Program-made: the position numbers and the translations under genes | In this document: piece after piece, positions 2,930-39,732 of the stretch | How the letters are laid out: each line of letters begins with the position of its first letter | How positions within the stretch are numbered: the first letter of the stretch is position 1 | The notes under the pieces: model-generated | Database searches by the model: none | What the model was told of the DNA's origin: nothing | The model's input: only the letters and a program-made list of their open reading frames with translations | Assembly (NCBI GenBank): GCA_945829235.1 | Contig: CALZUA010000027.1 | Location: 1 to 41,246, forward strand | Origin: an uncultured Clostridia bacterium | GTDB taxonomy: Bacteria > Bacillota > Clostridia > Oscillospirales > Ruminococcaceae | DNA length: 41,246 nucleotides | Direction of reading: 5' to 3'

Positions 2930-2958
2930 TGTAACACTCCTGTTGTTCGTGTGTATAC
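2930..2958 (+). promoter_or_regulatory. ECF-type promoter TGTAAC-N15-GTGTATAC (copy 1)
   Basis: TGTAAC at 2930-2935 and GTGTATAC at 2951-2958 with 15 nt between. The same two boxes with identical spacing recur at 9895, 10325 and 39704, each upstream of a secreted-protein gene. The initiator region is followed by a small inverted repeat (GGC/GCC, 2969-2980). Confidence 0.75.
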
Positions 2959-3013
2959 ACTAATGAAAGGCAATAAAGCCAAAAACAAAAACATAATACA
3001 GGAGGAAAAAACA

Positions 3014-3355
3014 ATGATTACAGAGGCATCGGCAAAGAGATTTGGAGAGCTTTCCAACAATGAGGAATTTATGGCTAAAATGCAGCAGGCGCAGACGATG
3101 GAGGAAATCCACCGTTGCCTTAACGACAACGGCGTTGACGTTTCTCTTGAGGACGTGAAGGCGGCTTATGAAGCGGGCAAGGAGCAGTACGAGGGTGAGT
3201 GCTCGGTTGAGGAGCTGGACAACGTTGCCGGCGGAAACTTTTTCAAGGACGCAGCAAAGCTTGCTACAAATCTTGTTTACGGCTTTTGCGCGGTAGGGTT
3301 CAATATGCTCACCGGCGGCAGATACGTTAAGTATATTCCCAAATGCAGATGGTAA
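3014..3355 (+). CDS. Nif11-like leader peptide precursor, double-glycine type (peptide 1)
   Basis: The 113-residue precursor starts at ATG 3014 with GGAGG at 3001-3005; an upstream in-frame GTG (2951) sits inside the promoter and is rejected. The N-terminal part (about 1-74) is a helical acidic Nif11-like leader (FGELSNNEEFMAKM, then VEELDNVAGG) ending in the GG processing site at 73-74. The 39-residue core begins NFFKDAAKLATNLVYG, contains two cysteines (FCAVG and PKCRW) and a basic C-terminus. Known biology: such leaders are cut by C39-peptidase ABC exporters, and one is encoded 1.6 kb downstream. The core has few Ser/Thr residues and no lanthionine synthetase is nearby, so a linear or disulfide-bonded peptide is more likely than a lanthipeptide. 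Function (bacteriocin, signal or other) is not determinable here. Confidence 0.85.
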   Translation: MITEASAKRFGELSNNEEFMAKMQQAQTMEEIHRCLNDNGVDVSLEDVKAAYEAGKEQYEGECSVEELDNVAGGNFFKDAAKLATNLVYGFCAVGFNMLTGGRYVKYIPKCRW

Positions 3356-3413
3356 AAGCTACGGCTTGTGCAGTTGCTTTTAACCCCGCTTTTATCGGTA
3401 TAGAATGAAGACA

Positions 3414-3449
3414 AACCCGCTGTTGCTGAAAAATGCCGCGGCGGGTTTT
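3414..3449 (+). terminator. Probable terminator after Nif11 peptide 1
   Basis: AACCCGC (3414-3420) pairs with GCGGGTT (3441-3447) across a long loop, followed by a short T run. It separates the peptide gene from the sigma/exporter operon. Confidence 0.55.
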
Positions 3450-3493
3450 CTCGTAAAAAAAGGACTATTTAATGCAATTTTTGGGAAATATTA

Positions 3494-3522
3494 TTGAAAA
3501 ACAGCTTGATGTGTGATATAAT
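3494..3522 (+). promoter_or_regulatory. Sigma-A promoter for the ECF sigma/exporter operon
   Basis: TTGAAA (3494-3499), 17-nt spacer, TATAAT (3517-3522), about 60 nt before the sigma factor start. The operon thus has a housekeeping promoter, unlike the precursor genes. Confidence 0.8.
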
Positions 3523-3582
3523 ATATATGGTTTCGTTTCTAAATGAAGCTGTATATAAAAATACATATAATTGAGGTGGGTT

Positions 3583-4113
3583 ATGAGGATAGCCAAAACT
3601 TTGGATGAAGAATTCTCGGAGTATTATAAAAAGTATTTTAATATCGCGGTAAATTATACCGTGAAGAAAATTCAAAATATGCAGGACGCAGAGGATATCA
3701 CTATGGATTGTTTTGCGAAATGCTATGAGAATTTTGACAAGTTTGATGAAACAAAAGCTTCATTCCAGACTTGGCTGTTCGTGATATTGAATAACAGAAT
3801 AAAGAACTACTATCGTGACCATAAGAACAGTGAGGAAATAGCCGAGGAGGTTGCTTCCGAAGAGAAGCTTGAAGATACCGTTGTTGAGGCGGAATATTTA
3901 AGTCAAATGAGAACGGTACTTAAAGACGCACTTGAAACCCTTAACGAACGTCAGCGTGAACTGATAATTATGAAATATTTTAAGAATATGAATTCAAATG
4001 AAATCGCTGAAGCAACCGGTATGACAGCGGTTAACGTTCGCGTTACGACAACCCGTGCAATGACCGCGCTGCGCGATTATTTCAGCAAAAACAACATAGA
4101 ACTGGAGCTTTGA
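3583..4113 (+). CDS. RNA polymerase ECF sigma factor of the peptide locus
   Basis: The 176-residue protein starts at ATG 3583 with GAGGTGG just upstream; the TTG at 3571 would overlap the SD and is not used. Region 2 is visible (DAEDITMDCFAKCYENFDKF, then FQTWLFVILNNRIKNYYRDH), a short acidic linker, and region 4 (LNERQRELIIMKYFKNMNSN, EIAEATGMTAVNVRVTTTRA). There is no anti-sigma gene beside it: downstream, 3 nt away, is the HlyD-like adaptor. The protein is the best candidate to read the TGTAAC-N15-GTGTATAC promoters of the precursor genes. A Ser/Thr kinase upstream without an anti-sigma recalls sigma factors activated by phosphorylation (EcfP/PknT type); that is inference. Confidence 0.9.
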   Translation: MRIAKTLDEEFSEYYKKYFNIAVNYTVKKIQNMQDAEDITMDCFAKCYENFDKFDETKASFQTWLFVILNNRIKNYYRDHKNSEEIAEEVASEEKLEDTVVEAEYLSQMRTVLKDALETLNERQRELIIMKYFKNMNSNEIAEATGMTAVNVRVTTTRAMTALRDYFSKNNIELEL

Positions 4114-4116
4114 TAA

Positions 4117-4965
4117 ATGAAACAGCTTTTCAGAAAATCAATGGTAGAAAAAATGGCAAATCCCGAACAGCTTGACAAAGCCGTTCAGGTTACTTCATCA
4201 ATGTCATGGCTTGCACTTATCGGCGTGGCTTTGATAATTGCCGCGGCGGTTGTATGGGCTTGCTTCGGAACATTGCCGGAAACGCTCACTGTAAATGGCA
4301 TTATCGTGCCGCCGGAAAACAGTTGCGCAATCTATGCAAAATCCGCTGGCATAATCGAAGAGGTTACGGTTTCGAGCGGCAGTTTTTCTGCCGGTGATAC
4401 AATTGCCCGCGTCCGCAGCAGCACGGGCGCGATAACGGATATTACTGCACCCGAAGACGGTACTTTGACAACGTTGCTTTGTTCCTCGGGAAATGAAACT
4501 ATACCGGCAACCGAGGTATATCCCGGCTATGAGATTGCGAGATACTCACCGTCTGTCAGCGGAAAACTCTTGGCATTATGTTTTGTTCCCGTAACCGAAG
4601 CTCGAAAAATACACAGCGGAATGGAAATACAGATTTATCCTGCGGGCGTTGACAATCAGCGGGACGGTCACATGACGGGAACTGTTGTTTCTATCGGTGA
4701 ATATGCTGTCGGTGTAAACAATATGGCTTACGTTCTTGGTGTTGATAACCAGCTTGCTGATATTTTTATTTCATCGGGACCCGTGGTATCGGTTGTGTGT
4801 GAAATAAAGACCGATTCCGGTTCGGAAAACGGTTTCTTTTGGACGAACGCGAACGGCAAAAAGCTTGCTGTTGGCAACGGTACACTTTTCTCGGCGAAAA
4901 TAATTACCGGAGAATATGCCCCAATCTCAAAGATTTTCGGAAATCTGAACGGAGGCAATTCTTGA
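4117..4965 (+). CDS. NHLM-type secretion protein, HlyD-like membrane fusion adaptor
   Basis: This 282-residue protein has one transmembrane helix (about 31-50, WLALIGVALIIAAAVVWACF) followed by a lipoyl-like hairpin (GIIVPPENSCAIYAKSAGII) and a beta-rich domain, as in HlyD-family adaptors. It is short because Gram-positive versions lack the outer-membrane reach. Placed directly before two ABC exporters, it matches the NHLM bacteriocin secretion protein family. The start ATG follows the sigma stop by 3 nt, and its stop overlaps the next ATG (TGATG), so the operon is translationally coupled. Confidence 0.85.
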   Translation: MKQLFRKSMVEKMANPEQLDKAVQVTSSMSWLALIGVALIIAAAVVWACFGTLPETLTVNGIIVPPENSCAIYAKSAGIIEEVTVSSGSFSAGDTIARVRSSTGAITDITAPEDGTLTTLLCSSGNETIPATEVYPGYEIARYSPSVSGKLLALCFVPVTEARKIHSGMEIQIYPAGVDNQRDGHMTGTVVSIGEYAVGVNNMAYVLGVDNQLADIFISSGPVVSVVCEIKTDSGSENGFFWTNANGKKLAVGNGTLFSAKIITGEYAPISKIFGNLNGGNS

Positions 4966-7133
4966 TGAAGAAATATGCAAGAACTCCGACAGTATATCAG
5001 ATGGAAGCAACGGAGTGCGGAGCGGCTTCACTCTCAATGATATTTGCCTATTTCGGCAAACATCTTGCGCTTGAGCAGATGCGAATTGAAACAGGAGTAT
5101 CCCGCGATGGTTGCAATGCGGGAAACATAATGCGCGCGGCAAAAAAATACGGACTTGAGTGTCACGGTTACAGAAAAGAGCCGGAAGCGCTGAAAAAGCT
5201 GACGCCCCCTTGCATTATCCACTGGAATTTCAATCATTTTGTTGTCTTCGAGGGCTTTCGCGGAAAAAAGCCCGTGATAAACGATCCGGCTGTCGGCAGA
5301 AGAGTTCTTTCAATGGAAGAGCTTGACAGCAGTTTTACAGGCATTGTTTTAACGTTTTCTCCCACATCGGAATTTAAGAAAGAGAAAAAGAAAAGCAATA
5401 TAGGCGGTATTTTTTCAGAGCGTCTTTCGGGACAATACGGTGCGGTTGCACAAACCTTGTTCGCGGGGCTATTGTTGGTTTTTCCGGGACTTGCGCTTCC
5501 GATGCTAAGTCAAGTTATTCTGGACGATGTGCTTATATCGGGAAACACAGACTGGTTCTGGCAGCTTATTATTGCAATGGCTGTTATAATTGTCATTCAG
5601 TTTGGACTGACGCTCTATCGAAGCAGAGTGCTGTTAAAGCTACAGAAAAAGATGGCATTGTTGTCCTCGCGGAAATTTCTCTATTCCTTGTTTCGGCTTC
5701 CGATAAGCTTTTTTGACCAGAGATACGCAGGCGATATTGTAAACAGAATTTCAAGTAACACCGGCATAAACGACTTTCTGACAGGCGATTTGGCAGAAAC
5801 AATTTTGGATATGGTGGTAGTTGTATTTTATCTCATTATGCTGATAATTTACAGCCCTCTGCTTTCTGCAATTGCCGTTGTAAGCGCACTGATAAATATT
5901 TTGATAACGCGGATTACTTCTCACAAGCTTGGCGAGCTTTCAATAAAATTTCGTCAGGATAACGGCAAACTAAACGGTGCTGTTTGTGCGGGACTTGAGA
6001 TAACAAGTACTCTGAAAGCTTCCGGCGCGGAATCGGCATATATTGAACGAATTTTGGGATATAATGCCAAAGCGGTTTGTCTTGAACAGAAGCTCAGCCG
6101 TTATCAGCAGATTGCAAATGCAATTCCATCGGCGCTGAAAATTGCCGCTGATGCGGCTATACTCCTGACAGGAGGATATCTTGTAATCAACGGGAAAATG
6201 TCAATCGGTCAGCTTGTTGCATTTACGACGCTGTTTGGTTCTTTTTCTGAACCCGTGGAGAAAATGGTTGGATTTGTAAAGAGTTTTCAAGCGGTTAAGG
6301 CGGATATAGACCGTGTGGAGGACATTGAAAACTATTCTGTTGATGAAAAATTTACAGATAAAACTCCGAATCAGGGTTTACGAACCAAACTGAACGGCTC
6401 TGTGGAATTACGAAACATCTCATTTGGATACAGCAGTTTAAAGCCGCCTTTAATACAGGATTTCAGCTGTAAGGCAGAGTGCGGCAGGTCGATTGCGTTT
6501 GTTGGTTCATCGGGTTGCGGAAAGTCAACGGTATCAAAAATTGTCAGCGGACTATATGCACCATGGAGCGGCGAGTTGTTGTTCGACGGTATTCCGGCAA
6601 AGGAGATACCGAACGAGGTGCTGAATGCAAGCATTTCAACGGTAAGTCAAGACATAACGCTCTTTTCCGGCACTATTCGCGATAACCTCACTATGTGGAA
6701 CAGCAACGTTTCCGAGGCGGATATGATTGCGGCGGCAAAGGACGCTTGCATACATGATTTAATTACGCAGAAGCCCGGCGCTTATGACTACCGTTTGTCG
6801 GAGGGCGCTGCAAACCTGTCCGGCGGACAGCGTCAGCGCCTTGAAATTGCAAGAGCGCTTGTGCTAAATCCCACGGTACTCATAATGGACGAGGCAACCA
6901 GTGCTCTTGACCCAGTTGTGGAGAAGCAGATTATCGACAACATTAAGCGAAGAGGTTGTACTTGTATAATTATTGCACATCGATTAAGTGCAATAAGAGA
7001 TTGTGACCGGATAATAGTTATGTCGCACGGCAGAATTGAGCAAAGCGGAACACACGAGGAGCTTTGCAATGTTGATGGTTTGTATCGGAGCTTTATAAAC
7101 AATAACGAAGGGGAAACTCATGAAACAAGATAA
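4965..7133 (+). CDS. NHLM-type ABC exporter with N-terminal C39 peptidase
   Basis: The 722-residue protein starts at ATG 4965, with GGAGG at 4951-4955. The N-terminal C39 cysteine-protease domain (1-about 140) shows the catalytic Cys in ATECGAAS (C18), His in FNHFVVFEG (H91) and Asp in INDPAVG (D107), so it should be active. Six membrane helices follow (about 160-440), then an ATPase domain with Walker A GSSGCGKST (about 513), signature LSGGQRQR (about 617) and Walker B LIMDEATSALD (about 640). Known role of the family: it binds leader peptides, cuts after the double glycine and exports the core. Substrates here are predicted to be the three Nif11-type precursors. It overlaps the next gene by 14 nt. 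Confidence 0.93.
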   Translation: MKKYARTPTVYQMEATECGAASLSMIFAYFGKHLALEQMRIETGVSRDGCNAGNIMRAAKKYGLECHGYRKEPEALKKLTPPCIIHWNFNHFVVFEGFRGKKPVINDPAVGRRVLSMEELDSSFTGIVLTFSPTSEFKKEKKKSNIGGIFSERLSGQYGAVAQTLFAGLLLVFPGLALPMLSQVILDDVLISGNTDWFWQLIIAMAVIIVIQFGLTLYRSRVLLKLQKKMALLSSRKFLYSLFRLPISFFDQRYAGDIVNRISSNTGINDFLTGDLAETILDMVVVVFYLIMLIIYSPLLSAIAVVSALINILITRITSHKLGELSIKFRQDNGKLNGAVCAGLEITSTLKASGAESAYIERILGYNAKAVCLEQKLSRYQQIANAIPSALKIAADAAILLTGGYLVINGKMSIGQLVAFTTLFGSFSEPVEKMVGFVKSFQAVKADIDRVEDIENYSVDEKFTDKTPNQGLRTKLNGSVELRNISFGYSSLKPPLIQDFSCKAECGRSIAFVGSSGCGKSTVSKIVSGLYAPWSGELLFDGIPAKEIPNEVLNASISTVSQDITLFSGTIRDNLTMWNSNVSEADMIAAAKDACIHDLITQKPGAYDYRLSEGAANLSGGQRQRLEIARALVLNPTVLIMDEATSALDPVVEKQIIDNIKRRGCTCIIIAHRLSAIRDCDRIIVMSHGRIEQSGTHEELCNVDGLYRSFINNNEGETHETR

Positions 7134-9675
7134 TTCTGTATTGCTCAAGGGCGGCGGTGTTTATATAACCGAATCGTCTGTAAACGCATATCGTGTGAGC
7201 AACGGAGAAGTTCTTATGTACATTGTTCCGGTAATTAACGGAAAACCGGGGCGCAGGTCTTTTTGCTATAAAGCAACAGTCGGAGAGGTAATTCCGGGAT
7301 TTTGCTACAATGACATTGACGGCAATTCTTGGCGTTTTTGCTTTGCGGCGGCTGAAACGGCAAGTCTTGAAATCATTGAGAATGGTGCAACAAAAATTCT
7401 TTGTGAAAAATTCGCGAAGAAAGCAGGTATCAGGAATTATGAGGTTGAGGGATTCAACGGAGGACTTGTAGACCAATATAGGATAAATACAGTTGCCGAG
7501 GACAGTTTTATTATCAAGAGCCAGCGCGACAGGGAACAGACTGCGCGTAAGATACTGGAACTGATACAGGATTCGTTCAGCAAAAACAGCGAAGCACAGC
7601 TTGGTGATAAAATCGGGAAACCGCTGTATGACTGCATTTCTGTAATCTGCCGCAAGAAGCGGATAACAATTGCTCCATACGAGAAGGTAAAACAGGCATA
7701 CGGCGATGAACCTCAGCTTTCGGATATTGCCAGAGTATCTCACTTTTCCTATCGCAAGGTAATTCTCGAAGAAAACTGGTACAAAAACGATCAGGGGGAA
7801 ATGGTAGCGTTTCTCGCTGACGGAACGCCGGTTGCGCTTTTTCCAAAAGGCGGACATTCCTATGAAGCTTATAATCCCAAAAACGGTGAACGGAAAAAGA
7901 TTACTGCAAAAAATGCCGAGAAATATGATGTGAATGCATACGTTATATGCAAGCCGCTTCCAACGAAAAAACTTGGTTTTAAGGATATTTTTCATTTCGG
8001 AATTGCAAGCCTAAAGGCAACCGACGCTGTGATTTTGCTTGTGCTTTCCGTTGTTGTTGCACTTATCGGATTGATTGTACCGATTATAAGCCAGAAGCTG
8101 TATGACGAGTTTATACCGCTTGGCGCTGAAAGCATATTGTTTCAGCTGGGCGGCTTGATGACCGCGTTCTTGGCTTCAAATGTAATGTTTTCCGTGGTGA
8201 AAAATCTTTCGCAGTATAAGATAGCACATCATATTTCGTATGATTTTCAGAATGCGGTATATGACCGTCTGTTCAATTTGCCGGAGAGCTTTTTCAGACA
8301 ATTTGAATCGGCAGACCTTGCACAAAGAGTTATGGCGGCATCGGGAATAGTGGCTTCGTGTGTAACCGTGATGGTTGTAAGCATAGCGGCAATTATAAAT
8401 CTTGTTATCTGCCTTGTACGAATGGGATTGTATTCGGCAGAATTGATGTGGATAGGATTGCTTATGACTGTGGTTTATTCGGCGGTTTATTATATAATCA
8501 ACAGCCTGTCGCTAAAGCACGATTTTGCCTGCGCGGAATTGGAGGGAAGCACCTCCTCGATAATGTACCAGTTTGTCGGTGGTATATCCAAGATAAGAAT
8601 TGCCGGAGTAGAAGACCGAGCAATATATGAATTCCTGAAACCATACAGCCGCCTGCGTGTACGAAAAGAGGTTTCGGGCAAAATAGCAGAATTGGGAAGC
8701 GTGATTTCACTTGCCGCCGGCAGTATTTTCTCAATAGTGTTTTATATAATTGTAGTGAAATCCGAGTTGAAGGTAAGCATTGGCGAATTTATTGCGTTCA
8801 ATACCGTTTTCGGTTCTTTTTCTGCCGCGGTAGCTCAGTTGGTTGACGGAATGCTTCAGATAAGGCGGCTCAGACCGGCAATTGACAGACTTGAACCTAT
8901 TCTTTCGGCATTGCCGGAATATGACGATGCAAAAGAACTTCCCGGCAACATTACCGGTGAAATTGAAATAAGCAACATAGTTTTTTCGTATTCCGATGAC
9001 TCGCCAAATGCGATTGACGGACTTTCTCTGAATATCAAAGCGGGAGAATATGTAGGAATTGTGGGAGCGTCCGGTTGCGGAAAATCCACACTTCTGAAAA
9101 TACTGCTGGGATTTGAGAAGCCCAAAAGTGGAAAAGTTTTTTATGATAACAAGGATATTGAAAGTCTTGACAAAAGGGAGCTGAGGAAAAAGATAGGCGT
9201 TGTTCTTCAAGACGGAAAGCTGATTTCGGGGAGCATTTTTGAAAATATTGCAATAACTTCACCGTCAGCGAGCAAGGCTGACGTAGAAGAAGCTGTGAAA
9301 TCGGTCGGACTTATGGAAGATATCAATGAGATGCCGATGGGATTGAATACCGTGCTCAGCGAGAATTGCGGAACAATTTCCGGCGGTCAGAAGCAACGTA
9401 TCCTGATTGCTCGCGCCCTTATCTCCAAGCCTAAGATTTTGTTTTTTGATGAAGCAACCAGCGCTCTTGATAATGTAACGCAACGAACAGTAACCGATAC
9501 TCTTGAAAGAATACCGGCAACGAAATTGGTTATTGCGCACAGACTTAGTACGGTTATAAATTGTGACAGAATAATCGTATTGGACAAAGGAAGAATTGCC
9601 GAACAGGGAACCTACGCTGAGCTTATGCAGAAGGAAGGTCTTTTCCGGCAGTTTGCAAGTCGTCAGATGGCATAG
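7120..9675 (+). CDS. NHLM-type ABC exporter, peptidase-less partner
   Basis: This 851-residue protein starts at ATG 7120 (SD GAAGGGG). The first ~300 residues form a soluble region without the C39 catalytic triad, then membrane helices (about 300-580) and an ATPase domain with Walker A GASGCGKST (about 648), signature ISGGQKQR (about 752) and Walker B LFFDEATSALD (about 773). Both ATPase sites look intact. In NHLM systems this protein is the second subunit paired with the peptidase exporter; the 14-nt overlap with the preceding gene suggests equimolar synthesis and a heterodimer. A strong terminator follows 63 nt downstream. Confidence 0.92.
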   Translation: MKQDNSVLLKGGGVYITESSVNAYRVSNGEVLMYIVPVINGKPGRRSFCYKATVGEVIPGFCYNDIDGNSWRFCFAAAETASLEIIENGATKILCEKFAKKAGIRNYEVEGFNGGLVDQYRINTVAEDSFIIKSQRDREQTARKILELIQDSFSKNSEAQLGDKIGKPLYDCISVICRKKRITIAPYEKVKQAYGDEPQLSDIARVSHFSYRKVILEENWYKNDQGEMVAFLADGTPVALFPKGGHSYEAYNPKNGERKKITAKNAEKYDVNAYVICKPLPTKKLGFKDIFHFGIASLKATDAVILLVLSVVVALIGLIVPIISQKLYDEFIPLGAESILFQLGGLMTAFLASNVMFSVVKNLSQYKIAHHISYDFQNAVYDRLFNLPESFFRQFESADLAQRVMAASGIVASCVTVMVVSIAAIINLVICLVRMGLYSAELMWIGLLMTVVYSAVYYIINSLSLKHDFACAELEGSTSSIMYQFVGGISKIRIAGVEDRAIYEFLKPYSRLRVRKEVSGKIAELGSVISLAAGSIFSIVFYIIVVKSELKVSIGEFIAFNTVFGSFSAAVAQLVDGMLQIRRLRPAIDRLEPILSALPEYDDAKELPGNITGEIEISNIVFSYSDDSPNAIDGLSLNIKAGEYVGIVGASGCGKSTLLKILLGFEKPKSGKVFYDNKDIESLDKRELRKKIGVVLQDGKLISGSIFENIAITSPSASKADVEEAVKSVGLMEDINEMPMGLNTVLSENCGTISGGQKQRILIARALISKPKILFFDEATSALDNVTQRTVTDTLERIPATKLVIAHRLSTVINCDRIIVLDKGRIAEQGTYAELMQKEGLFRQFASRQMA

Positions 9676-9894: not shown

Positions 9895-9923
9895 TGTAAC
9901 ACATACGGCGATACGGTGTATAC
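9895..9923 (+). promoter_or_regulatory. ECF-type promoter TGTAAC-N15-GTGTATAC (copy 2)
   Basis: TGTAAC 9895-9900 and GTGTATAC 9916-9923, spacing 15. Ten nt downstream is a perfect hairpin CGGTG-agaa-CACCG (9933-9946), probably near the 5' end of the transcript. Confidence 0.8.
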
Positions 9924-9978
9924 ACAAATGAACGGTGAGAACACCGGAACAGAAATTAAATTTACGGAGGAAAAAACA

Positions 9979-10314
9979 ATGACAACCAGAGAAAGTGTAA
10001 TCGCAGTACTTAGCAATGAAGAGTTCGTGGAGAACATGAAGGCGGTATCTTCCCGCGAGGAGCTTGAGGAGCTTTTCAGAAAGAATGGCGTAACCGGAAG
10101 CATGGAGGAGATAAGCGAGGTAGTAAAGGAGTTCGCAGAGGCTGAGGGTATAATCGAAGCAGACGAGCTTGACGAAAATGCTCTTGAGAATGTTAGCGGC
10201 GGATTCTTATCTCTCTTGGCAGTAGGTGCTGTTACAGTAGCATGGACAGCGTTTTGCGCATACGGTTGCGTATCAACTACAGTCAGCGGAATCAGACAGA
10301 TACTTTCCAAGTAA
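9979..10314 (+). CDS. Nif11-like leader peptide precursor, double-glycine type (peptide 2)
   Basis: The 111-residue precursor starts at ATG 9979 with GGAGG at 9966-9970; longer upstream starts would run through the terminator and promoter. The leader shows SNEEFVENMKAVSSREELEE and ends ELDENALENVSGG (GG at 74-75). The 36-residue core (begins FLSLLAVGAVTVAWTAF) is strongly hydrophobic, with two cysteines four residues apart (FCAYGC), and would span a membrane. It is like peptides 1 and 3 only in the leader, so the exporter must accept different cores. No modification enzyme is encoded nearby. Confidence 0.88.
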   Translation: MTTRESVIAVLSNEEFVENMKAVSSREELEELFRKNGVTGSMEEISEVVKEFAEAEGIIEADELDENALENVSGGFLSLLAVGAVTVAWTAFCAYGCVSTTVSGIRQILSK

Positions 10315-10324: not shown

Positions 10325-10353
10325 TGTAACACATACGCCGCCAAGGTGTATAC
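10325..10353 (+). promoter_or_regulatory. ECF-type promoter TGTAAC-N15-GTGTATAC (copy 3)
   Basis: TGTAAC 10325-10330 and GTGTATAC 10346-10353, spacing 15. Ten nt downstream lies a hairpin CGGC-aataac-GCCG (10363-10376). The whole 95-nt leader up to the ATG is clearly homologous to that of peptide 2, so promoter and gene were duplicated together. Confidence 0.8.
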
Positions 10354-10408
10354 ATAAACGAACGGCAATAACGCCGGAAACAAAATAACAATAACGGAGG
10401 AAAAAACA

Positions 10409-10726
10409 ATGACAAACGAAGAAAAGATGAAGGAACTTCTGCAGAACGACGAGTTCATGGCAAAGCTCAGCGCGATTGAGGAGAAAAGCGAGGTTCAGAA
10501 GCTGTTCAAGGATAACGGCGTAGAGCTTACCGATGAGCACATTGAGAAGCTGAAGTCGGAGCTTGAGAGCGACGAGCTTGACGCGAACGCTCTTGATGCA
10601 GTAAGCGGCGGACTTTATGACGCGCGCGGTCGTAAAAGAACATGGGGTCAATTCTTTGCATATATCACCACTGCTATGTTTTTTGGCCAGAAAGCGGCGA
10701 ACAAACTCAACGATTCATGGGGCTGA
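10409..10726 (+). CDS. Nif11-like leader peptide precursor, double-glycine type (peptide 3)
   Basis: The 105-residue precursor starts at ATG 10409 with GGAGG at 10396-10400. The leader (NDEFMAKLSAIEEKSEVQKL, then ELDANALDAVSGG) ends in GG at 67-68. The 37-residue core starts LYDARGRKRTWGQFFAYI, has a cationic N-terminus and a hydrophobic middle, and contains no cysteine at all. It therefore cannot form thioether or disulfide rings, which argues that this locus exports at least one unmodified peptide. Only 10 nt separate the peptide 2 stop from this gene's -35 box. Confidence 0.88.
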   Translation: MTNEEKMKELLQNDEFMAKLSAIEEKSEVQKLFKDNGVELTDEHIEKLKSELESDELDANALDAVSGGLYDARGRKRTWGQFFAYITTAMFFGQKAANKLNDSWG

Positions 10727-10780: not shown

Positions 10781-12279
10781 GGGTCTGAAAAAAGAACTGT
10801 GTAAACGCGAATAATCCCCCAAAACGTACCAATACTAAAAATGTAGCCAAACAGGGCAACGCTGGGGAGCGACCCGATGCAGGCTGTGGAATAAAACGGT
10901 GAAGGACAGCAGCAGGAATGTTGCTGCCTTTGCATTTTTCACCGGATATTCCTAAAGCGGATAAACCTCGGGAGCACGAGGGCAGAGCCCTCGTCAGCCG
11001 TCAGGCTGCGAACCTATCCTCGAAGAAAATCGCAAATTGCGAGTATGCCAGTCCCCAGTCTCGTATAGGCATAGTCCACTTCTTTGAAATCTCCACAACG
11101 CTCATATAAACGACCTTGCGAATAGCGTCATCGGTCGGAAAAATCGACTTGGATTTGGTGAATTTCCGCACCATTCTGTGGTAACCTTCGACGGCATTCG
11201 TTGTATATATTATCTTCCGAATCTCCTGCGGATATTCGAAAAATACGGTCAATTCAGCCCAGTTTTTATCCCAGGATTTCAGGATATTCGGGTACTTCTT
11301 ATCCCACTTCTCGCGGAATTCTTCCTTGGCAAATTCAGCGTCATCAAGATTTACCGCACCGTAAATTTTCTTCAAGTCAGCGCATACTGACTTGCGGTCT
11401 TTGTACGGAACAAACTTGCAGCTGTTGCGTATCTGATGGACTATGCAGAGCTGATTTTTTGTCTTCGGAAAAACCGAGTTTATCGCATCACAAAGCCCCG
11501 TAAGGTTATCGTGACAGGCGATGAAAATGTCTTTCACACCGCGGTTCTTGAGGTCTGCGCAGATGCTCGCATAGAAACTTGCAGACTCGTTTTCGGATAT
11601 CCAAGTACCGAGAATTTCCTTCTGACCTTCCATGTTTATGCCGAGAACAGAGTACACGCATTTCGTGACAATTTTGTTGTCTTTGCGTGAATTGAACACG
11701 ATTCCATCGAAGAAAACCACCGGGTAAATCGCCTCAAGCGGACGGTTTTGCCACTCGTTGACTTCGGGCAAGATTTTGTCGGTTATCCTCGAAACTAACC
11801 CTTGCGAAATCTCGGTTCCGTAGATTTGCTTTAACGTATCTTCGATGTCACGTTGTGACATACCTTTCGCATACATTTGCAAGATTTTCTGTTCAATCTC
11901 GTCGGTTCTTGTCTGTCGTTTTTCGATGACTTTTGGCTCAAATTCGCCGTTTCTGTCGCGAGGAACAGCGATTTTGCACTCACCATAATCGCTGATTATC
12001 GTCTTTTTGCCGTAACCGTTTCTGCTGTTTCCGGCAGCAGAGTTCTTCTCGTAGCCGAGATGTTCGTCCATTTCTGCCTCAAGCATCTGCTCAATCGTCC
12101 CGGCAAAAAGCTGTTTCAACTTTGCCTGAATATCTCCTGTCGTCCGGCAATCCGCCATCAGCAGATTTACCAGTTCCATTTCTCTTTCATCTAATCCGTG
12201 TGTTCTTTTCATGTGCAATACCTCACTTTTTTGTGGGTATTATTGGCATTTACACGGTTCGATATTCAACCTCTTACCC
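10781..12279. mobile_element. IS256-family insertion sequence (~1.5 kb)
   Basis: Imperfect terminal inverted repeats flank the transposase. The left end reads GGGTCTGAAAAAAG and then AACTGTGTAAACGCGAATAAT. The complement of the right end reads GGGTAAGAGG, then AACCGTGTAAATGCCAATAAT, with a few bases of length difference between the two blocks. I find no 8-9 bp target duplication in the flanks, so the ends may be off by a few bases or one flank was rearranged. Between the left end and the transposase stop (10781-11000) are only hairpins: CGGTGAA...TTCACCG around GCAGCA/TGCTGC (10897-10944) and CGAGGGC-aga-GCCCTCG (10977-10993), the latter a likely transposase terminator. Confidence 0.85.
11001..12212 (-). 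CDS. IS256 (Mutator-type) family transposase
   Basis: The product is 403 residues from ATG 12212 (SD GAGG 8 nt upstream), the usual size for IS256 transposases. Typical features are the N-terminal MLEAEMDEHLGYEK motif, basic region GNSRNGYGKKTI, and catalytic acidic residues in VVFFDGIV (first Asp), ACHDNLTGL (second Asp) and YTTNAVEGYHR (Glu). It is full length with no stop, so the element may still be active. Confidence 0.95.
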   Translation of the reverse strand: MKRTHGLDEREMELVNLLMADCRTTGDIQAKLKQLFAGTIEQMLEAEMDEHLGYEKNSAAGNSRNGYGKKTIISDYGECKIAVPRDRNGEFEPKVIEKRQTRTDEIEQKILQMYAKGMSQRDIEDTLKQIYGTEISQGLVSRITDKILPEVNEWQNRPLEAIYPVVFFDGIVFNSRKDNKIVTKCVYSVLGINMEGQKEILGTWISENESASFYASICADLKNRGVKDIFIACHDNLTGLCDAINSVFPKTKNQLCIVHQIRNSCKFVPYKDRKSVCADLKKIYGAVNLDDAEFAKEEFREKWDKKYPNILKSWDKNWAELTVFFEYPQEIRKIIYTTNAVEGYHRMVRKFTKSKSIFPTDDAIRKVVYMSVVEISKKWTMPIRDWGLAYSQFAIFFEDRFAA

Positions 12280-13543: not shown

Positions 13544-14145
13544 TTACGGTATCCATTTTCCGCTTGCTTGTCCGGATTGTTTTCCCCAAACGCAGAGGAC
13601 AAATTCATCGCCGATTTCGGCTTGTTTATCATAATCAATCTGCAAGGTGTGAGCGCCGTTATCAACGGCAATTCTTCCGATACATTCCCGCGTTTCACCC
13701 TCGCGGTACACTGCAAGAGAGATAACACCTCTGCACTCAATCTCTACGGCTGCGTATTGCTTATCATCTTTTTTCGTCACGGCTACGGTAAATACGGGTG
13801 CATTTTCATCGGTGAAAAGAGTAATTTCAAACTCACCGATATTGCCTTTGCGCTCGTGAAAACGGGCTCTGCGGATATCGGCTCGGGTTCGCTTTCGATA
13901 ACGGACGAAGTTCCCGAAATCACGCTGTCATTCGGCGCAACAATGCGCGTTCCGTACAACTTTACAGCCGCAAAAATTCCCGCCGATATTGCACAAACCG
14001 CTGCCGCTGAAACCGCAATTCTGCGAAACGAAAAATGTTCTCCGTGCTGATAAATAACCAGCGGCTGTTCGGGAACATCGGCTATTTCATCGATAAACTT
14101 GTCATCGATATCGTCCACAATGCTCAGAAATTGCTCCTTTGTCAT
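13544..14145 (-). CDS. Membrane protein, possible anti-sigma factor, interrupted by one frameshift
   Basis: ATG 14145 overlaps the sigma stop by 4 nt (ATGA). The N-terminus is acidic and cytoplasmic (MTKEQFLSIVDDIDDKFIDE), with one TM helix (about 43-62, IAVSAAAVCAISAGIFAAV). The frame breaks near 13859-13862: the sequence continues in another frame as ERKGNIGEFEITLFTDENAP, VTKKDDKQYAAVEIECRG, ending GKWIP at 13544. One extra T in the minus-strand T4 run restores a protein of about 200 residues with an extracellular beta domain. Position and topology fit an anti-sigma factor or sensor for the sigma factor, though I see no zinc-binding anti-sigma motif. Confidence 0.72.
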
Positions 14146-14702
14146 ATATCAAAACCTCTTTTCGACAGATATTTTTTGAGTTGTTTTCGCGTTTTTGCAA
14201 TGTTTTCGGAAACTCCGCTCGGTGACATTCCGTGTTGTTCAGCGAGTTGCGCGATATTAAAACAGCCCCAGTATATCCCGACAAACAGTTGACGTTGACG
14301 CGAGGGAAGTTTGTCCAGAAACCGGTTTAACGCGGCAACAATCTCTTTGCGCTCCGCCTCAATTTCAACGGAATATTCACCCGAAACAAAATCGTCAAGT
14401 TCGTCAAACGACAAATCCGTTTCACCGCCGCCGCGATTTTCGGTTTTAAGGGAACGCACTCTGTTCAGCGCGAGATTTTTCGTTATACGTCCCAGAAACG
14501 CGCGTAACACCGGAGGTCTTTTCGGGGGAATGGACTCCCACGCGCGAATATATGTTTCGTTTACACACTCGTCTGCTTCCTCGGAATTATTGAGAATATT
14601 CCGCGCGATAGTTTTGCAGTAAAGCCCGTATTTTCGTGAAACATCGCGGAGAGCCGCTTCGCTACGGTCAAAGAACAACTCGATGATTTCGCAATCCTCC
14701 AT
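14142..14702 (-). CDS. RNA polymerase ECF sigma factor (second)
   Basis: The 186-residue protein starts at ATG 14702 (SD GAGGAGG 5 nt upstream). Region 2 shows NSEEADECVNETYIRAWESI and FLGRITKNLALNRVRSLKTE; region 4 shows LDKLPSRQRQLFVGIYWGCF and IAQLAEQHGMSPSGVSENIA. It heads a three-gene operon with a membrane protein and a lipoprotein, the usual layout of an envelope-stress sigma with its regulator. Its target promoter is unknown; its own promoter is housekeeping type. Confidence 0.92.
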   Translation of the reverse strand: MEDCEIIELFFDRSEAALRDVSRKYGLYCKTIARNILNNSEEADECVNETYIRAWESIPPKRPPVLRAFLGRITKNLALNRVRSLKTENRGGGETDLSFDELDDFVSGEYSVEIEAERKEIVAALNRFLDKLPSRQRQLFVGIYWGCFNIAQLAEQHGMSPSGVSENIAKTRKQLKKYLSKRGFDI

Positions 14703-17527: not shown

Positions 17528-17541
17528 TAGGAGAAAATAAT

Positions 17542-18417
17542 ATGTTTTGTAGAAATTGCGGACAAAAAATTGAGGACGGTTCAACGTTTTGCCCAAATTG
17601 CGGCACGCCGGTATCAGGCGCAAACGCCGCTCCTGTCAACAACGCTGAAAATGCTCAGCCAAACAATGCTGTAAACGCACAGCCAAACAACGTTGGAGCG
17701 GCTCAGCCTAAACAGCGCAAAAAGCTCGGGACGGGCGCTGTTGTTGCAATTTCGGTCTCGGTGGCGGTTGTCGTTATCGCGGCGGTTGTGGTGTTCTTCC
17801 TATTCTTTTATAAGGGCGGAAACAGCGGTTCATCGGGACAGTCTTCCGGCATAGGCGGTATAGTCGGACCGTCCGGCGGCTCTTCGCAGACTGTTCAGAC
17901 GGGACAGCCTGTGATGACCGTAAACGGAGAGAATATTCCCTTGGAGCTTTCGGGCTTTGCTTATACCGAAGTCGATACGGGGGATTATGGATATGCGGCT
18001 GTTTTCATGGGAAGAAAAGGCACCGAATTGTACAGCGTACAAGCGTTGTTTTTAACCGATGAAGACCCCACCTGTCCTTCCGCAAACACTACATACGACA
18101 CTTTAAGCAGCAAATATGAAGATACGGTTGCCGTTCAGTTCAATTATATGGATTCATCAAAGGGGACTGAAATCTATGCGGCTTCATACGACGGCGGATT
18201 TGACCGCGCAGAGGTGAGCGTTGGCGATTTCAAGCCGAACGAGAAAATGGTGATTTCTATTAACGGTAAAGCCTCGGAAGACGGTCTGACTTTTGATTTC
18301 TCGGCAAGCGGAGATTTGGAGTTCTACCATGACCCCGAAAAGTTCATAGATAAAATCGAGTCAATAGTTAAGTCGGTTCGCAATTCGGGCAATAACAAGC
18401 CGTCAAGTGGAAATTGA
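17542..18417 (+). CDS. Zinc-ribbon membrane protein with extracellular beta domain
   Basis: 291 residues from ATG 17542 (SD TAGGAG). Zinc ribbon MFCRNCGQKIEDGSTFCPNC, Asn/Gln/Ala-rich spacer with internal repeats (AQPNNAVNAQPNN), TM helix about 64-90, Gly/Ser linker, then an extracellular domain (MTVNGENIPLELSGFAY to about 280). It lacks the DnaJ-like tail. The next gene repeats almost all of this protein, including long identical DNA stretches, so this is a tandem duplicate. Confidence 0.85.
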   Translation: MFCRNCGQKIEDGSTFCPNCGTPVSGANAAPVNNAENAQPNNAVNAQPNNVGAAQPKQRKKLGTGAVVAISVSVAVVVIAAVVVFFLFFYKGGNSGSSGQSSGIGGIVGPSGGSSQTVQTGQPVMTVNGENIPLELSGFAYTEVDTGDYGYAAVFMGRKGTELYSVQALFLTDEDPTCPSANTTYDTLSSKYEDTVAVQFNYMDSSKGTEIYAASYDGGFDRAEVSVGDFKPNEKMVISINGKASEDGLTFDFSASGDLEFYHDPEKFIDKIESIVKSVRNSGNNKPSSGN

Positions 18418-18449
18418 CGCAAAATACATAATATTTAGGAGGAAAAATT

Positions 18450-19949
18450 ATGTTTTGTAGAAAATGCGGGCAAAAACTTGAGGACGGTTCAACGTTCTGC
18501 ACAAATTGCGGCACGCCGGTATCAGGCGAAAACGCTGCTCCTGTCAACAATGTTGTGAATACTCAGCCTAGCAATGCTGTAAACGTTCAGCCAAACAACG
18601 TTGGAGCGGCTCAGCCCAAACAGCGCAAAAAGCTCGGGACGGGCGCGATTGTTGCGATAGTGGCTTCGGTGGCGGTTGTGATTATCGCGGCGGTTGTGGT
18701 GTTCTTCCTGTTCTTTTATAAGGGCAACGGCAATAACAACAGCGGCGGTTCATCGGGGCAGACTTCCGGCATCGGCGGTATAGTCGGACCGTCCGGCGGC
18801 TCTTCGCAGACTGTTCAGACGGGACAGCCTGTGATGACCGTAAACGGCGAGAGTATCCCTTTGGAACTTGCTAGCTTTGATTACTGTAGGGTGGATACGG
18901 GAACTGATGGAAATTTTGCTGCTTTTGTAGGGAAAAAGGGCACCGAGATGTACATCGTAGCAGCGTTGTTCTTAACCGATAAAGACCCAAGTTGTCCTAC
19001 CGCAAACACTACATACGACACATTAAGCAGCGAAGATAAAAATAAGGTTTGTGTTTGGTTCGATTATATTGATTCATCAACGAGAGCTGAAATATTTGAG
19101 TATTCATACTCCGGCAATTATGACCGCGCCGAGATTATTGTCGGAGATTTCAAGCCGAACGAGAAAATGGAGATTTCTATTAATGGAAAAGTTTCGAATG
19201 ACGGACTGACTTTTGATTTCTCGGCAAGCGGAAATCTGGAGTTCTACAATGGTTCCGACAGTTTTGATGATAAACTCTGGGATGAAAAAGATGCGTTTCG
19301 CTATTCGGGAAATAACACGTCGTCAAGCTCCAAGCCGTCAAGCTCATCAACACGGCAGGAAGTTGAAATCGCAGGAACAACCTATCCCGTTTCTACAACA
19401 TTTCTTGATTTGAGCAACAAGGGGCTGCGCGACAGCGATATCAAAAACATTAAGTATCTGACAAACCTCACTCGTGCGGAACTCAGTGGAAACAATCTCA
19501 CGGATATCTCGGTTTTGCAGAGCATAACCTCGCTCGAGGAGATTGACGCAAAGGATAATAAAATAAGCGACATTTCCTTTATGAAAAAGCTCCCGAATCT
19601 GAAGATAGTTGTTATGAACAACAATCCGATAAAGGATATCTCGGTATTCAGCAATTTCTCCACGATAGAGAAAATTTGGCTTAACGACACCTATGTAACG
19701 GATATCTCTCCCATCTCCAAGAACAAAGGAATGACGGAGCTTGGCTTTGACAACTGCAATATCAGGGATATTTCCGCAATTAAGGGAATGAAAAAGCTTC
19801 AAATGTTGGAATTGCATAATTGCGGGAATACCGATATAAGCGCCCTTTCAACCTGCACGGGACTTAATTGGCTCAGTATTACAGATAACAAGATTAAGGA
19901 TTGGTCACCGATTGATAAACTCAATATAGCAGAATTGTATCGTGACTGA
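18450..19949 (+). CDS. Zinc-ribbon membrane protein fused to a leucine-rich repeat domain
   Basis: 499 residues from ATG 18450 (SD TAGGAGG). Residues 1-about 285 duplicate the preceding protein (MFCRKCGQKLEDGSTFC, TM, beta domain). A Ser-rich linker leads into a new C-terminal domain of about seven LRR units of 21-22 residues with the internalin/SDS22-like pattern (LTNLTRAELSGNNLTDISVL, LPNLKIVVMNNNPIKDISVF). The fusion gives a membrane-anchored receptor-like protein with a protein-binding ectodomain. A bidirectional terminator follows. Confidence 0.88.
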   Translation: MFCRKCGQKLEDGSTFCTNCGTPVSGENAAPVNNVVNTQPSNAVNVQPNNVGAAQPKQRKKLGTGAIVAIVASVAVVIIAAVVVFFLFFYKGNGNNNSGGSSGQTSGIGGIVGPSGGSSQTVQTGQPVMTVNGESIPLELASFDYCRVDTGTDGNFAAFVGKKGTEMYIVAALFLTDKDPSCPTANTTYDTLSSEDKNKVCVWFDYIDSSTRAEIFEYSYSGNYDRAEIIVGDFKPNEKMEISINGKVSNDGLTFDFSASGNLEFYNGSDSFDDKLWDEKDAFRYSGNNTSSSSKPSSSSTRQEVEIAGTTYPVSTTFLDLSNKGLRDSDIKNIKYLTNLTRAELSGNNLTDISVLQSITSLEEIDAKDNKISDISFMKKLPNLKIVVMNNNPIKDISVFSNFSTIEKIWLNDTYVTDISPISKNKGMTELGFDNCNIRDISAIKGMKKLQMLELHNCGNTDISALSTCTGLNWLSITDNKIKDWSPIDKLNIAELYRD

Positions 19950-34165: not shown

Positions 34166-34166
34166 T

Positions 34167-34195: not shown

Positions 34196-34213
34196 CCATT
34201 ATTATGATATAAT
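34185..34213 (+). promoter_or_regulatory. Chemoreceptor gene promoter
   Basis: TTTACT (34185-34190), 17-nt spacer, TATAAT (34208-34213), 30 nt before the ATG. Confidence 0.7.
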
Positions 34214-34242
34214 ATAAGAAATAACTTAAAAGAGGGATTTTT

Positions 34243-36273: not shown

Positions 36274-36297
36274 TAAAAATGGGGACTGTTAAAGCAG

Positions 36298-36423: not shown

Positions 36424-36446
36424 TTCCGCAAGCGTAGTCGGGACGT

Positions 36447-36593: not shown

Positions 36594-36614
36594 AAATTTT
36601 TTGTTTGATGAATT

Positions 36615-37016
36615 TCAGTCTGTCGGTTCAAACGAGCAATGAACGTGTTTAACCTTCCAAGATTTTTGCAACTTTTCCAAGTACATTGTCGTCCGAATAC
36701 CAGGCCTCGGGAAACTCTTGTATCGAGCTATAAAACAAAGGCAGGCGGCGTCCTGCGTTGAAAAAACATTGAATTGCTCGATAATCAATTCTTCAACCGC
36801 TCCGGATTCCGTTTGCTTACCGTTTCGGAAAAACTCGGAAACCAACTGTAAATGTTCCCGAAGCGTGTAGGTGTCATTGCCCTTGTGATTATCGAAGTAA
36901 ATGAGCTCGTTGTGTTCAACGTCATAGAACTCACTCAATTTTTCAATATTCTTGTTGTACCACGACTGATTGTAGTCATTCAAATACTTTTCAAAAAGCG
37001 CTCTGATATCTTCCAA
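36615..37016 (-). CDS. SnoaL-like (NTF2-fold) protein
   Basis: 133 residues from TTG 37016, 10 nt after AGGAGG; the ATG between them is out of frame. Begins MEDIRALFEKYLNDYNQSWY and contains LSEFYDVEHNELIYFDNHKG and CFIARYKSF, ending in HVHCSFEPTD, a typical small alpha+beta cone-fold protein with YxxGD-like region. Substrate unknown; such proteins are often isomerases or stress-associated. An out-of-frame ATG at the ideal SD distance raises the possibility of a start-codon indel. Confidence 0.75.
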   Translation of the reverse strand: MEDIRALFEKYLNDYNQSWYNKNIEKLSEFYDVEHNELIYFDNHKGNDTYTLREHLQLVSEFFRNGKQTESGAVEELIIEQFNVFSTQDAACLCFIARYKSFPRPGIRTTMYLEKLQKSWKVKHVHCSFEPTD

Positions 37017-37306
37017 AGCATATTCGCCTCCTGTTACATATCATTTGAATTTGCAAGAATTTATCGCAATTTTTGCGATGAGCGAATAATCCTGATTAAG
37101 GTCAAGAGTTTGTGCTCCAGAGAACCTTTAAGCTCTTCGCGAAGCTTCCGGCGGTATGCGGTTTTCCCGACCTATTTCAGTTCAAAGAAATGTATACTGA
37201 AAAAGCTCGGAGAAAACCATATTCCGCTGTACCTTGCAGGGAAAATAAAGGAGATTTTTTAGGCGTGTTTGGGGGCGTTTCCCATCATTTTATTGCCCTA
37301 TACCAC
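37017..37306. other. Intergenic region with a possible decayed coding tail
   Basis: 290 nt. A plus-strand frame reads SSSRSFRRYAVFPTYFSSKK, CILKKLGENHIPLYLAGKIK, EIF-stop (37262) with no start or SD, possibly the end of a lost gene. No family recognised. No promoter or hairpin of note. Confidence 0.3.
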
Positions 37307-38428: not shown

Positions 38429-38467
38429 AACTTTTTCTCCTTTTCAATTCGATATTAACACCGGTTA

Positions 38468-39055
38468 TTACAGTGCTTTCGGGTTGTATTTCGTGATAAA
38501 TAGCTCAAGGGTTTCTTTGAGCACGGCTAGCTGTGATTTCAGGTAAAATTCGTCCTCAAACAGCGCGTAATGCACGCAAGCTCTTACCAGAATAAATATC
38601 AGCGGCGTTAGCTTCTCGTGCGGAATACCCAGCTTGACCTCAAGGCTTTTGGCATATTCGGTATAACGCTTATCAACTCCCGCAAAGAATTTCTTGCCGT
38701 ATTCTCTGTACTTTGGGTGGGTGTAGACCTGATACATCAGGCGGTATTTCTTCCCGTACTTTTCTGCCGTCCAGTAAGGTATCTCGTCGATAAACCGCCA
38801 CAATTCCTCGACATCTATGGGTGCTTTCGCCATAAAATCGTCTTCTACCTTACTCATACAGTATTCTGTGGATTGAATAATAATGTCATCGAGATTTTCA
38901 AAATATTGATACAGGCTCGCGACATTACAGCCGCAGGCGTCCGCAATAGCTTTCACACCGACACCGGCAAGTCCGTTTTCCGCATAGCAGTCGAAGCACT
39001 TTTCCATAATCTCGATTTGCTTAGCCCTGCGTGCTTCTTCATTAGCAGTTCGCAA
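38468..39055 (-). CDS. TetR-family transcriptional regulator
   Basis: 195 residues from TTG 39055 (SD GGGAGG 7 nt upstream). HTH region IMEKCFDCYAENGLAGVGVK, AIADACGCNVASLYQYFENL, DDIIIQSTEYCMSK, then a helical ligand domain. First gene of the operon with the Ntn-hydrolase; an operator palindrome overlaps its transcription start, so autorepression is likely. Confidence 0.93.
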   Translation of the reverse strand: MRTANEEARRAKQIEIMEKCFDCYAENGLAGVGVKAIADACGCNVASLYQYFENLDDIIIQSTEYCMSKVEDDFMAKAPIDVEELWRFIDEIPYWTAEKYGKKYRLMYQVYTHPKYREYGKKFFAGVDKRYTEYAKSLEVKLGIPHEKLTPLIFILVRACVHYALFEDEFYLKSQLAVLKETLELFITKYNPKAL

Positions 39056-39081
39056 TAGATTTCCTCCCTTCTTGAATAATA

Positions 39082-39097
39082 AAGTAAATGCTTACTT
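39082..39097. promoter_or_regulatory. TetR operator candidate
   Basis: Perfect palindrome AAGTAA-atgc-TTACTT (39082-39097), lying just downstream of the -10 box, ideal for blocking transcription. Confidence 0.75.
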
Positions 39098-39099
39098 AT

Positions 39100-39128
39100 A
39101 TTATAGCGCTCTCGTTAAATTTTGTCAA
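39100..39128 (-). promoter_or_regulatory. Sigma-A promoter of the TetR/hydrolase operon
   Basis: Minus strand consensus TTGACA (39128-39123), 17-nt spacer, TATAAT (39105-39100). Confidence 0.88.
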
Positions 39129-39252
39129 GCGGTTAAAGCAAAAATTAGAAAATTTTTACAGTTTACATGAGCTACAGATTCTTTCTTTCATTATATTTAC
39201 GCTCATCACCGAGTGAAAATTTAAACAGTTAAGAGGATTTCTCAAAGAAAAC

Positions 39253-39394
39253 ATTGTTACAGTCCGAGGCGCTTTGCAGAACAGCGGGGGAGCGGTGAGT
39301 GCGGATTTTCGCTCTTTCCTTTTTAATTTTTGATGTAATTCACAATTCGACATTTTGCATTATAACAAAAACGGAGCAACCGCGTGATTGCTCC
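39253..39394. repeat. Intergenic repeat, copy B
   Basis: Second copy of the repeat described at 36447-36593. It ends with the hairpin GGAGCAA/TTGCTCC (39373-39394), which serves as a terminator for the minus-strand ABC remnant. Confidence 0.7.
39373..39394 (-). terminator. Terminator behind the ABC exporter remnant
   Basis: GGAGCAA (39373-39379) pairs with TTGCTCC (39388-39394); on the minus strand it is followed by GTTTTTG. It has mismatches compared with the perfect copy at 36572. Confidence 0.65.
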
Positions 39395-39418
39395 AAAAAT
39401 AGTTCTGTTCGATAAAAT

Positions 39419-39676
39419 TCATTCTGCCTGCTCAAACTGACTGTTATACAGCTCAGCATATATTCCGTTTTGCAAAATAAGTTCTTTGCCTTTTTCCGTG
39501 CTGTCCTGCGCGGTTTTTTTGCCGTCCTTTATCTTTACCGGCATATCCAAAACCTCGTTGATACGGTAAACGCTGACCATTACTCTCGGAAGCATTACTA
39601 TCATCACGGTGAGCATAGCAAAAGCCATGATGACCTGCATCGCGTACTGCGAAAACACCACCATATCCGAGAAAAT
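39419..39676 (-). pseudogene. ABC exporter remnant with internal deletion
   Basis: The frame reads IFSDMVVFSQYAMQVIMAFA, MLTVMIVMLPRVMVSVYRIN, EVLDMPVKIKDGKK, the end of an ABC exporter membrane domain. It then jumps directly to ELILQNGIYAELYNSQFEQA, the extreme C-terminus of such exporters. The whole ATPase domain and most membrane helices are missing, and there is no SD. Confidence 0.75.
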
Positions 39677-39703
39677 CGAAAGTTAAAAATAATTTCAAAA
39701 AAA

Positions 39704-39732
39704 TGTAACACGTTTGAAATTTTTGTGTATAC
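39704..39732 (+). promoter_or_regulatory. ECF-type promoter TGTAAC-N15-GTGTATAC (copy 4)
   Basis: TGTAAC 39704-39709 and GTGTATAC 39725-39732, spacing 15, identical to the sites of the three peptide genes 30-37 kb away. A short hairpin ATAA-ggtt-TTAT (39740-39751) follows. The next gene is the LRR lipoprotein. Confidence 0.7.

Follow-up and report, generated by a model that had tools for sequence, protein, structure and literature searches.

How is a Nif11/NHLM peptide-export system switched on, a step little described in the literature reached? The question is raised by a 41,246-nucleotide stretch of DNA (the window; contig C27, CALZUA010000027.1) from the genome of an uncultured Clostridia bacterium of the Ruminococcaceae (GCA_945829235.1; G000, 3.23 Mb in 52 contigs). 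In the window, a gene for an extracytoplasmic function (ECF) sigma factor at 3583..4113 lies with the genes of an NHLM exporter, and a two-box element, TGTAAC-N15-GTGTATAC, recurs ahead of genes for peptide precursors with GG-type leaders. The initial annotation proposed that the boxes define a candidate regulon, most likely read by this sigma factor. The results described here show a real and very specific promoter-like signal that marks out a regulon of genes for exported peptides together with linked genes; its reader is most probably the ECF sigma factor of the same export cassette.

A specific two-box element precedes peptide genes

The window carries four exact boxes on the plus strand, at 2930..2958, 9895..9923, 10325..10353 and 39704..39732, each with the 15-nucleotide spacing first reported, and none was found in 100 shuffles of the window. 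The first three stand 55 nucleotides before the ATG of three plus-strand peptide genes, namely pepA (3014..3355; 113 residues, Nif11-like leader with AGG), pepB (9979..10314; 111 residues, GG leader) and pepC (10409..10726; 105 residues, Nif11-like GG leader). The fourth lies 172 nucleotides before the start of a gene for a BspA-type leucine-rich repeat (LRR) lipoprotein (39905..41246, plus strand, truncated by the window end), which matches PF13306 with 300.1 bits and has a lipoprotein-type N-terminus as read by eye.

A scan of the whole genome found the exact box at 10 places and the reversed pattern, used as a control, at none. Allowing up to two mismatches gave 16 places (10 exact, one with one mismatch and five with two) versus 12 for the control; since the two-mismatch places are no more numerous than the control, only the first 11 stand out. 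The other five were dropped from the regulon, although one of them, on contig C28, stands upstream of an ECF sigma gene. Contig C29, of 38,798 bases, duplicates window positions 1–38779 at 99.995%, either through redundancy of the assembly or by a genuine large duplication. Three of the 10 exact sites are C29 copies, and the unique set thus comprises eight sites, seven of them exact and the eighth with one mismatch. By the lists of open reading frames (ORFs), all eight are intergenic and each points at a gene, as opposed to a random scatter over intergenic and coding DNA, which bears out the candidate regulon of the initial annotation.

Two letters outside the searched pattern recur at the sites of the source genome (eight) and of two relatives, G019 (one) and G015 (three). 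An A follows TGTAAC at 11 of these 12 sites, and another A follows GTGTATA(C/T) at all 12; the putative promoter is best written TGTAACA-N15-TGTATA(C/T)A.

Four of the eight unique sites lie outside the window. The box at C1:262604 stands 58 nucleotides before the gene of a 108-residue Nif11-like GG peptide, which is followed by that of a 588-residue protein that combines TPR and LRR with a hydrophobic segment. At C1:265005, a 67-residue zinc-ribbon ORF begins after 71 nucleotides and precedes the gene of an 823-residue BspA-type LRR lipoprotein. At C1:269562, where the second box has the form GTGTATAT, the box is followed at 57 nucleotides by the gene of a 71-residue peptide with a leader ending in VSAA, then by genes for a STAS protein and for an FHA protein with a sub-threshold TIR match. 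The site at C39:6684, on the minus strand, lies 160 nucleotides from a 50-residue ORF with a lipoprotein-like start and about 410 nucleotides from the gene of a 1047-residue zinc ribbon/TPR/BspA LRR protein. A box of such specificity allows unlinked members of the peptide-export programme to be predicted from sequence; it adds the putative peptide–LRR/TPR and STAS–TIR/FHA operons, which position alone could not have linked to the cassette.

The leaders were compared with the Nif11 leader model TIGR03798 (cut-off 32.3 bits). Seven of nine peptides matched, all below the cut-off (27.2 bits for pepA, 16.8 for pepB and 24.5 for pepC, and 23.3, 32.2, 31.7 and 18.0 for the others), and the two of the VSAA/VTAA type gave no match in this search.

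The box co-occurs with the sigma factor of an NHLM export cassette

The 176-residue sigma factor encoded at 3583..4113 (plus strand) belongs by its domains to the ECF (group 4) class, with 49.2 bits for Sigma70_r2 (cut-off 24), 45.4 for Sigma70_r4_2 (25.7) and 108.4 for TIGR02937 (42.9). Its gene heads the exporter genes, which follow closely on the same strand and encode an HlyD-like subunit (4117..4965; TIGR03794, 167.2 bits, cut-off 156.2), the ATP-binding cassette (ABC) exporter 1 with a Peptidase_C39 domain (4959..7133; TIGR03796, 982 bits, cut-off 853.3) and ABC exporter 2 (7120..9675; TIGR03797, 758.7 bits, cut-off 709.4). All three exceed the curated NCBIfam cut-offs, which identifies them as an NHLM export cassette. 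As initially described, the sigma gene has an ordinary sigma-A-type promoter (TTGAAA-17-TATAAT, 3494..3522, plus strand, 11/12 matches).

Co-occurrence of box, sigma factor and exporter was analyzed in 43 genomes of the genus, with thresholds of E<=1e-30 for the sigma factor and E<=1e-150 for NHLM ABC1. The exact box is present in three of them (G000, G015 and G019), and the 3583-type sigma factor is found in the same three, the best match elsewhere in the genus being 3.9e-25. By a hand count that ignores kinship, the chance of drawing identical triples among 43 is 1 in 12,341. Of the 43 genomes, 10 have NHLM ABC1, and seven of these carry neither the 3583-type sigma factor nor the box. In a family sample of 396 genomes, which includes neither G015 nor G019, the box with one A was found in two, G000 and G308; in an order sample of 394 genomes, the longer form of the box was found in G000 only.

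Gene order in the two relatives points the same way. The G019 cassette is syntenic with that of the window, with identities of 58% for the sigma factor, 55% for HlyD, 75% for ABC1 and 60% for ABC2. The stretch L064 (CAMAGG010000040.1), with box and sigma factor placed as in G019 contig C40, encodes the sigma factor, HlyD, ABC1 and ABC2 in this order; next comes the box, followed by the genes of a GG peptide and of a zinc-ribbon/TPR/RCC1 protein. In G015, one box stands ahead of a GG peptide, and directly behind ABC2 lies TGTAAC-N15-GTGTATAT, followed by genes for a VTAA peptide and for STAS and TIR/FHA proteins. C1:269562 of the source genome and G015 thus share the gene order and the variant GTGTATAT although they belong to different species, which suggests that the STAS–TIR/FHA operon is probably part of the system.

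On this evidence we consider it likely that the boxes act as the −35 and −10 elements in a promoter of the ECF type that is read by the 3583 sigma factor and drives the GG-leader peptides together with linked genes. Transcription from the predicted start sites behind the boxes would yield the peptide precursors and would continue into the genes behind them, such as those of the TPR/LRR protein at C1:262604 and of the STAS–TIR/FHA pair at C1:269562. The sigma gene itself would head the exporter genes under its sigma-A-type promoter and not under its own box; with such an arrangement, the level of the sigma factor may set the regulon.

Sister sigma factors and other box pairs

The source genome has three NHLM modules, on contigs C27, C23 and C3, each with an ECF-like sigma gene nearby. 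In a tree of 15 sigma factors, from which that of G022 was left out, the window sigma factor groups with those of G019, G015 and G059 (clade A, support 100/99). Clade B joins the C4 type with G009, G020 and G023 (100/99), and clade C, with a weaker support of 85/83, is the group with C23 and C3, the latter on a long branch.

Other box pairs of the same N15 layout stand beside some of these sigma factors. In 12 genomes, TGTAAC-N15-GCGTATAA occurs three times (once in G009 and twice in G020) and its reversed control once, in G023; in both G009 and G020, one copy lies less than 3 kb from the clade B sigma gene. In 15 genomes, TTATCC-N15-TCGTATAA, assigned to the C23 and C3 sigma factors of G000, occurs 10 times, nine in G000 and one in G022, whose sigma factor is 60% identical to that of C23 and 32% to that of the window; the reversed control occurs once, in G059. 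A gene was assigned at seven of the nine G000 sites and not at that of G022, six encoding GG or GG-like peptides and one an exported protein. On C3, a TTATCC-N15-TCGTATAA box heads the gene of a 63-residue peptide, the stop codon of which adjoins the start of the sigma gene, followed by HlyD and the exporters. The C3 arrangement is positional evidence for an apparent pairing of sigma factor and box in the sister module, not for the window sigma factor itself.

These data lead to a wider proposal to which we give somewhat less than even credence. Each NHLM module of the lineage might carry its own ECF sigma factor, and the sigma clades might have their own −35/−10 pairs and so form insulated regulons. 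With its three modules and two promoter classes, the source genome would on this view operate programmes in parallel, each coupling a diversified set of exported peptides to proteins that are exported or sit in the membrane; the class found in the window would add the STAS–TIR/FHA operon, perhaps feeding back on the sigma factor. Should the sister modules really use sigma/promoter pairs of their own, the result would be a natural set of orthogonal parts.

Weighing the boxes as proposed promoters read by the 3583 sigma factor

Several observations weigh against recognition of the boxes by the 3583 sigma factor. Four exact boxes occur in G308, a genome from a different genus: two lead GG peptide genes, a third lies 305 nucleotides upstream of another, and the fourth is close to the end of a contig. 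In this 70% complete genome neither a clade A sigma factor (best match 6.5e-13) nor NHLM ABC1 (best 331 bits, cut-off 853.3) was found. Conversely, G059 has a clade A sigma factor (38% identity) and lacks the exact box as well as any NHLM ABC1 match at E<=1e-150. The box at G015 C93:9077 precedes an ORF without an assigned identity. No box precedes the window sigma gene, nor was one found in relaxed scans of the stretches L064 and L095; the own promoter class that is canonical for ECF systems is thus absent here and present at the C3 sigma factor with its own box. Among the sister sigma factors, TGTAAC-N15-GCGTATAA is absent from G000 and G023 despite their clade B sigma factors, so that the pairing holds in two of four members, and G027, G034, G041 and G253 carry clade C sigma factors and no TTATCC box. 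Finally, the spacers look copied within the pepB/pepC pair and within the C1:262604/C1:265005 pair, so the eight sites do not represent eight independent events. Two further points of this kind, the sigma-A promoters beside some boxes and the symmetry of the element, are described below.

Sigma-A-type sites with at least 9/12 matches and a spacer of 16–18 nucleotides were sought from 60 nucleotides upstream of each box to the start codon. No such site was found for pepA, pepB, pepC, the C1:262604 peptide and the C1:265005 zinc-ribbon ORF. Sites of 9/12 were likewise absent from the gap between the C1:262604 box and the LRR/TPR gene, from that between the box-led peptide and the TPR/RCC1 gene in G019, and from both gaps between the VSAA/VTAA boxes (G000 and G015) and their STAS genes. 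The C39:6684 gene has weaker sigma-A sites, the best of 10/12, and a 10/12 site begins 141 nucleotides upstream of the pepB box. Three of the eight unique sites (window 39704, C1:265005 and C1:269562) stand beside a perfect sigma-A promoter. That of C1:269562 begins 57 nucleotides upstream of the box. Both box-associated BspA lipoprotein genes have theirs 85–86 nucleotides before the start (39819..39847, plus strand, 12/12, in the window; 11321–11349 in L017 for the C1 gene); a zinc-ribbon ORF lies between box and promoter in L017, and none lies between box 4 and its promoter.

Because each BspA lipoprotein gene has a perfect sigma-A promoter of its own, the box at these two loci probably plays an accessory part or acts for a different gene. 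The initial interpretation is thus supported in part. The proposed regulon stands, and the link between peptide secretion and a surface receptor is weak at the window lipoprotein; it appears better supported at the predicted C1:262604 operon and in G019, since at both places the box-led peptide is followed by the gene of a TPR protein bearing LRR or RCC1 repeats.

The same sigma-A sites bear on a different interpretation, in which the element is an operator. Its inverted repeat, TGTAACAC-N13-GTGTATACA, would be bound by a dimeric regulator, and transcription would start from other promoters, such as the three perfect ones, one of them just upstream of its box, and the 10/12 site upstream of pepB. 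The arms, one of which has an extra A, match at 8/8 positions in the seven unique exact G000 sites and in G019 and at 7/8 at C1:269562, an imperfect inverted repeat in which six of the eight letters were fixed by the search itself, whereas the AC needed to complete the left arm lies outside the search and is present at all eight G000 sites. We regard an operator as unlikely. The dyad drops to 6/8 in the two G015 sites scored, in which the searched boxes are kept, and five of the eight G000 sites lack a sigma-A site in the scanned interval. The distance from box to ATG is 54–58 nucleotides for six peptide genes (five in G000 and one in G019), though it is 67 and 45 nucleotides in G015 and 47 and 39 in G308 (the latter counted after one further A), and some sister sigma factors have box pairs with the same N15 layout.

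If the boxes are an ECF promoter, they might still be read by another ECF sigma factor of the genome, such as the second one of the window or that of C28. The G019 sigma factor has 11 matches in G000 at E<=1e-5, one of which is the C29 copy. One of the discarded two-mismatch boxes (C28:24330-24358, minus strand, L015) lies upstream of the C28 sigma gene (C28:23742-24191) and is perhaps its own promoter, in which case TGTAAC may be a common ECF −35 element here. The G308 boxes would also be accommodated by a reader of another type. The co-occurrence of box and 3583-type sigma factor in the genus, the synteny of sigma factor and exporter in G019, and the lack of any box with up to three mismatches near the gene at 14142 make such a reader unlikely. 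The initial assignment of the boxes to the 3583 sigma factor is favoured by its co-occurrence in three of 43 genomes and by the other boxes beside some sister sigma factors, and is qualified by G308 and by the second ECF sigma factor of the window. The gene of the latter (14142-14702, minus strand) scores above the Pfam cut-offs, and its product is 23% identical to the 3583 sigma factor; behind it on the same strand, an ORF at 13783-14145 without a Pfam match may encode an anti-sigma factor.

Control of the sigma factor and comparison with known systems

No anti-sigma gene was recognized beside the 3583 sigma gene, the next genes being those of HlyD and the exporters, and a 49-residue ORF at 2720-2868 has no Pfam match. 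Upstream of pepA lies a gene for a Ser/Thr kinase with a TPR-like region (643-2718), preceded by that of a TPR protein (57-641). A kinase gene near the sigma gene recalls the ECF43 EcfP/PknT systems, the kinase-activated sigma factors of which are marked by a missing DAED motif in region 2.2, according to PMC8999054. The window differs from these systems in both partners: the motif is kept (QDAED in the window and G015, QEAED in G019), and the kinase gave no tblastn match in 19 stretches from relatives and paralogues, the G019 contig included. Activation of the ECF43 type was therefore set aside; with its DAED motif, the sigma factor would not need the nearby kinase. Control through the level of the sigma factor, or through a putative further partner, is favoured; candidate feedback components acting on the sigma factor are the STAS and FHA proteins encoded in the regulon.

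The consensus of Bacillus subtilis sigma-W is TGAAAC-N16-CGTATA. Shifted by one base, the box reads TGTAAC-N16-TGTATA and agrees with this consensus at 10/12 positions. The system thus resembles sigma-W-type ECF regulons in its sigma factor with regions 2 and 4 and in its two-box promoter. Unlike in those regulons, no adjacent anti-sigma factor was recognized here, no box precedes the sigma gene, and the targets are exported peptides and linked genes. Streptococcal SigX differs from the window sigma factor in that it is reportedly a ComX-type sigma factor with quorum sensing and not an ECF factor. Its control of bacteriocins, as given in PMC4497675, provides the parallel of an alternative sigma factor driving bacteriocin peptides.

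The cassette corresponds to the NHLP/Nif11 (NHLM) cassette of Haft et al., 2010 (PMC2887384) in having HlyD, ABC1 with a C39 peptidase, ABC2 and peptides with GG-type leaders. It differs from that description in its own ECF sigma factor and promoter class and in leaders that score below the Nif11 cut-off. A term search of the main text of PMC2887384 gave no occurrence of 'sigma', 'promoter' or 'transcription'. No description of an ECF-controlled Nif11/NHLM regulon was found in the literature searched, which consisted mostly of papers outside subscription and included PMC6363468, PMC8999054 and PMC2887384.

Minor features of the locus

Four viral stretches of IMG/VR contain the box with the AC and A extensions, and ORFs were printed for three of them. 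They were judged unrelated, since no window query (kinase, peptides, sigma factor, exporter or LRR protein) matched at E<=1e-3. In G308, a box-bearing GG peptide gene on contig C98 (L091) lies beside prophage-like structural genes, as read by eye. The window kinase and the G015 TIR protein also gave PADLOC matches, which were set aside as they seem to reflect domains of a generic kind.

Two neighbouring elements of the window were also noted. A Mutator-family transposase gene (Transposase_mut; 11001-12218, minus strand) adjoins pepC. Two tandem zinc-ribbon genes (17528-18407 and 18436-19327) are about 82.6% alike in the C29 comparison, and the second carries added LRR-like repeats.

A small hairpin lies about 10 nucleotides behind the −10 box. 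It occurs on the plus strand of the window at 2969..2980 (GGC...GCC; weak singly, with a dinucleotide-shuffle fraction of 0.08), 9933..9946 and 10363..10376, and at matching places in L017, L018, L064 and L094. The level of 0.05 was reached at eight of 11 genus sites with simple shuffles and at five of 12 with dinucleotide shuffles, and at none of the four G308 sites with either type. Read by eye, the stems vary on both sides (GGC/GCC, GGTG/CACC and GCAA/TTGC). The hairpin, kept as a minor feature, is possibly a 5′ stabilizer of the mRNA.

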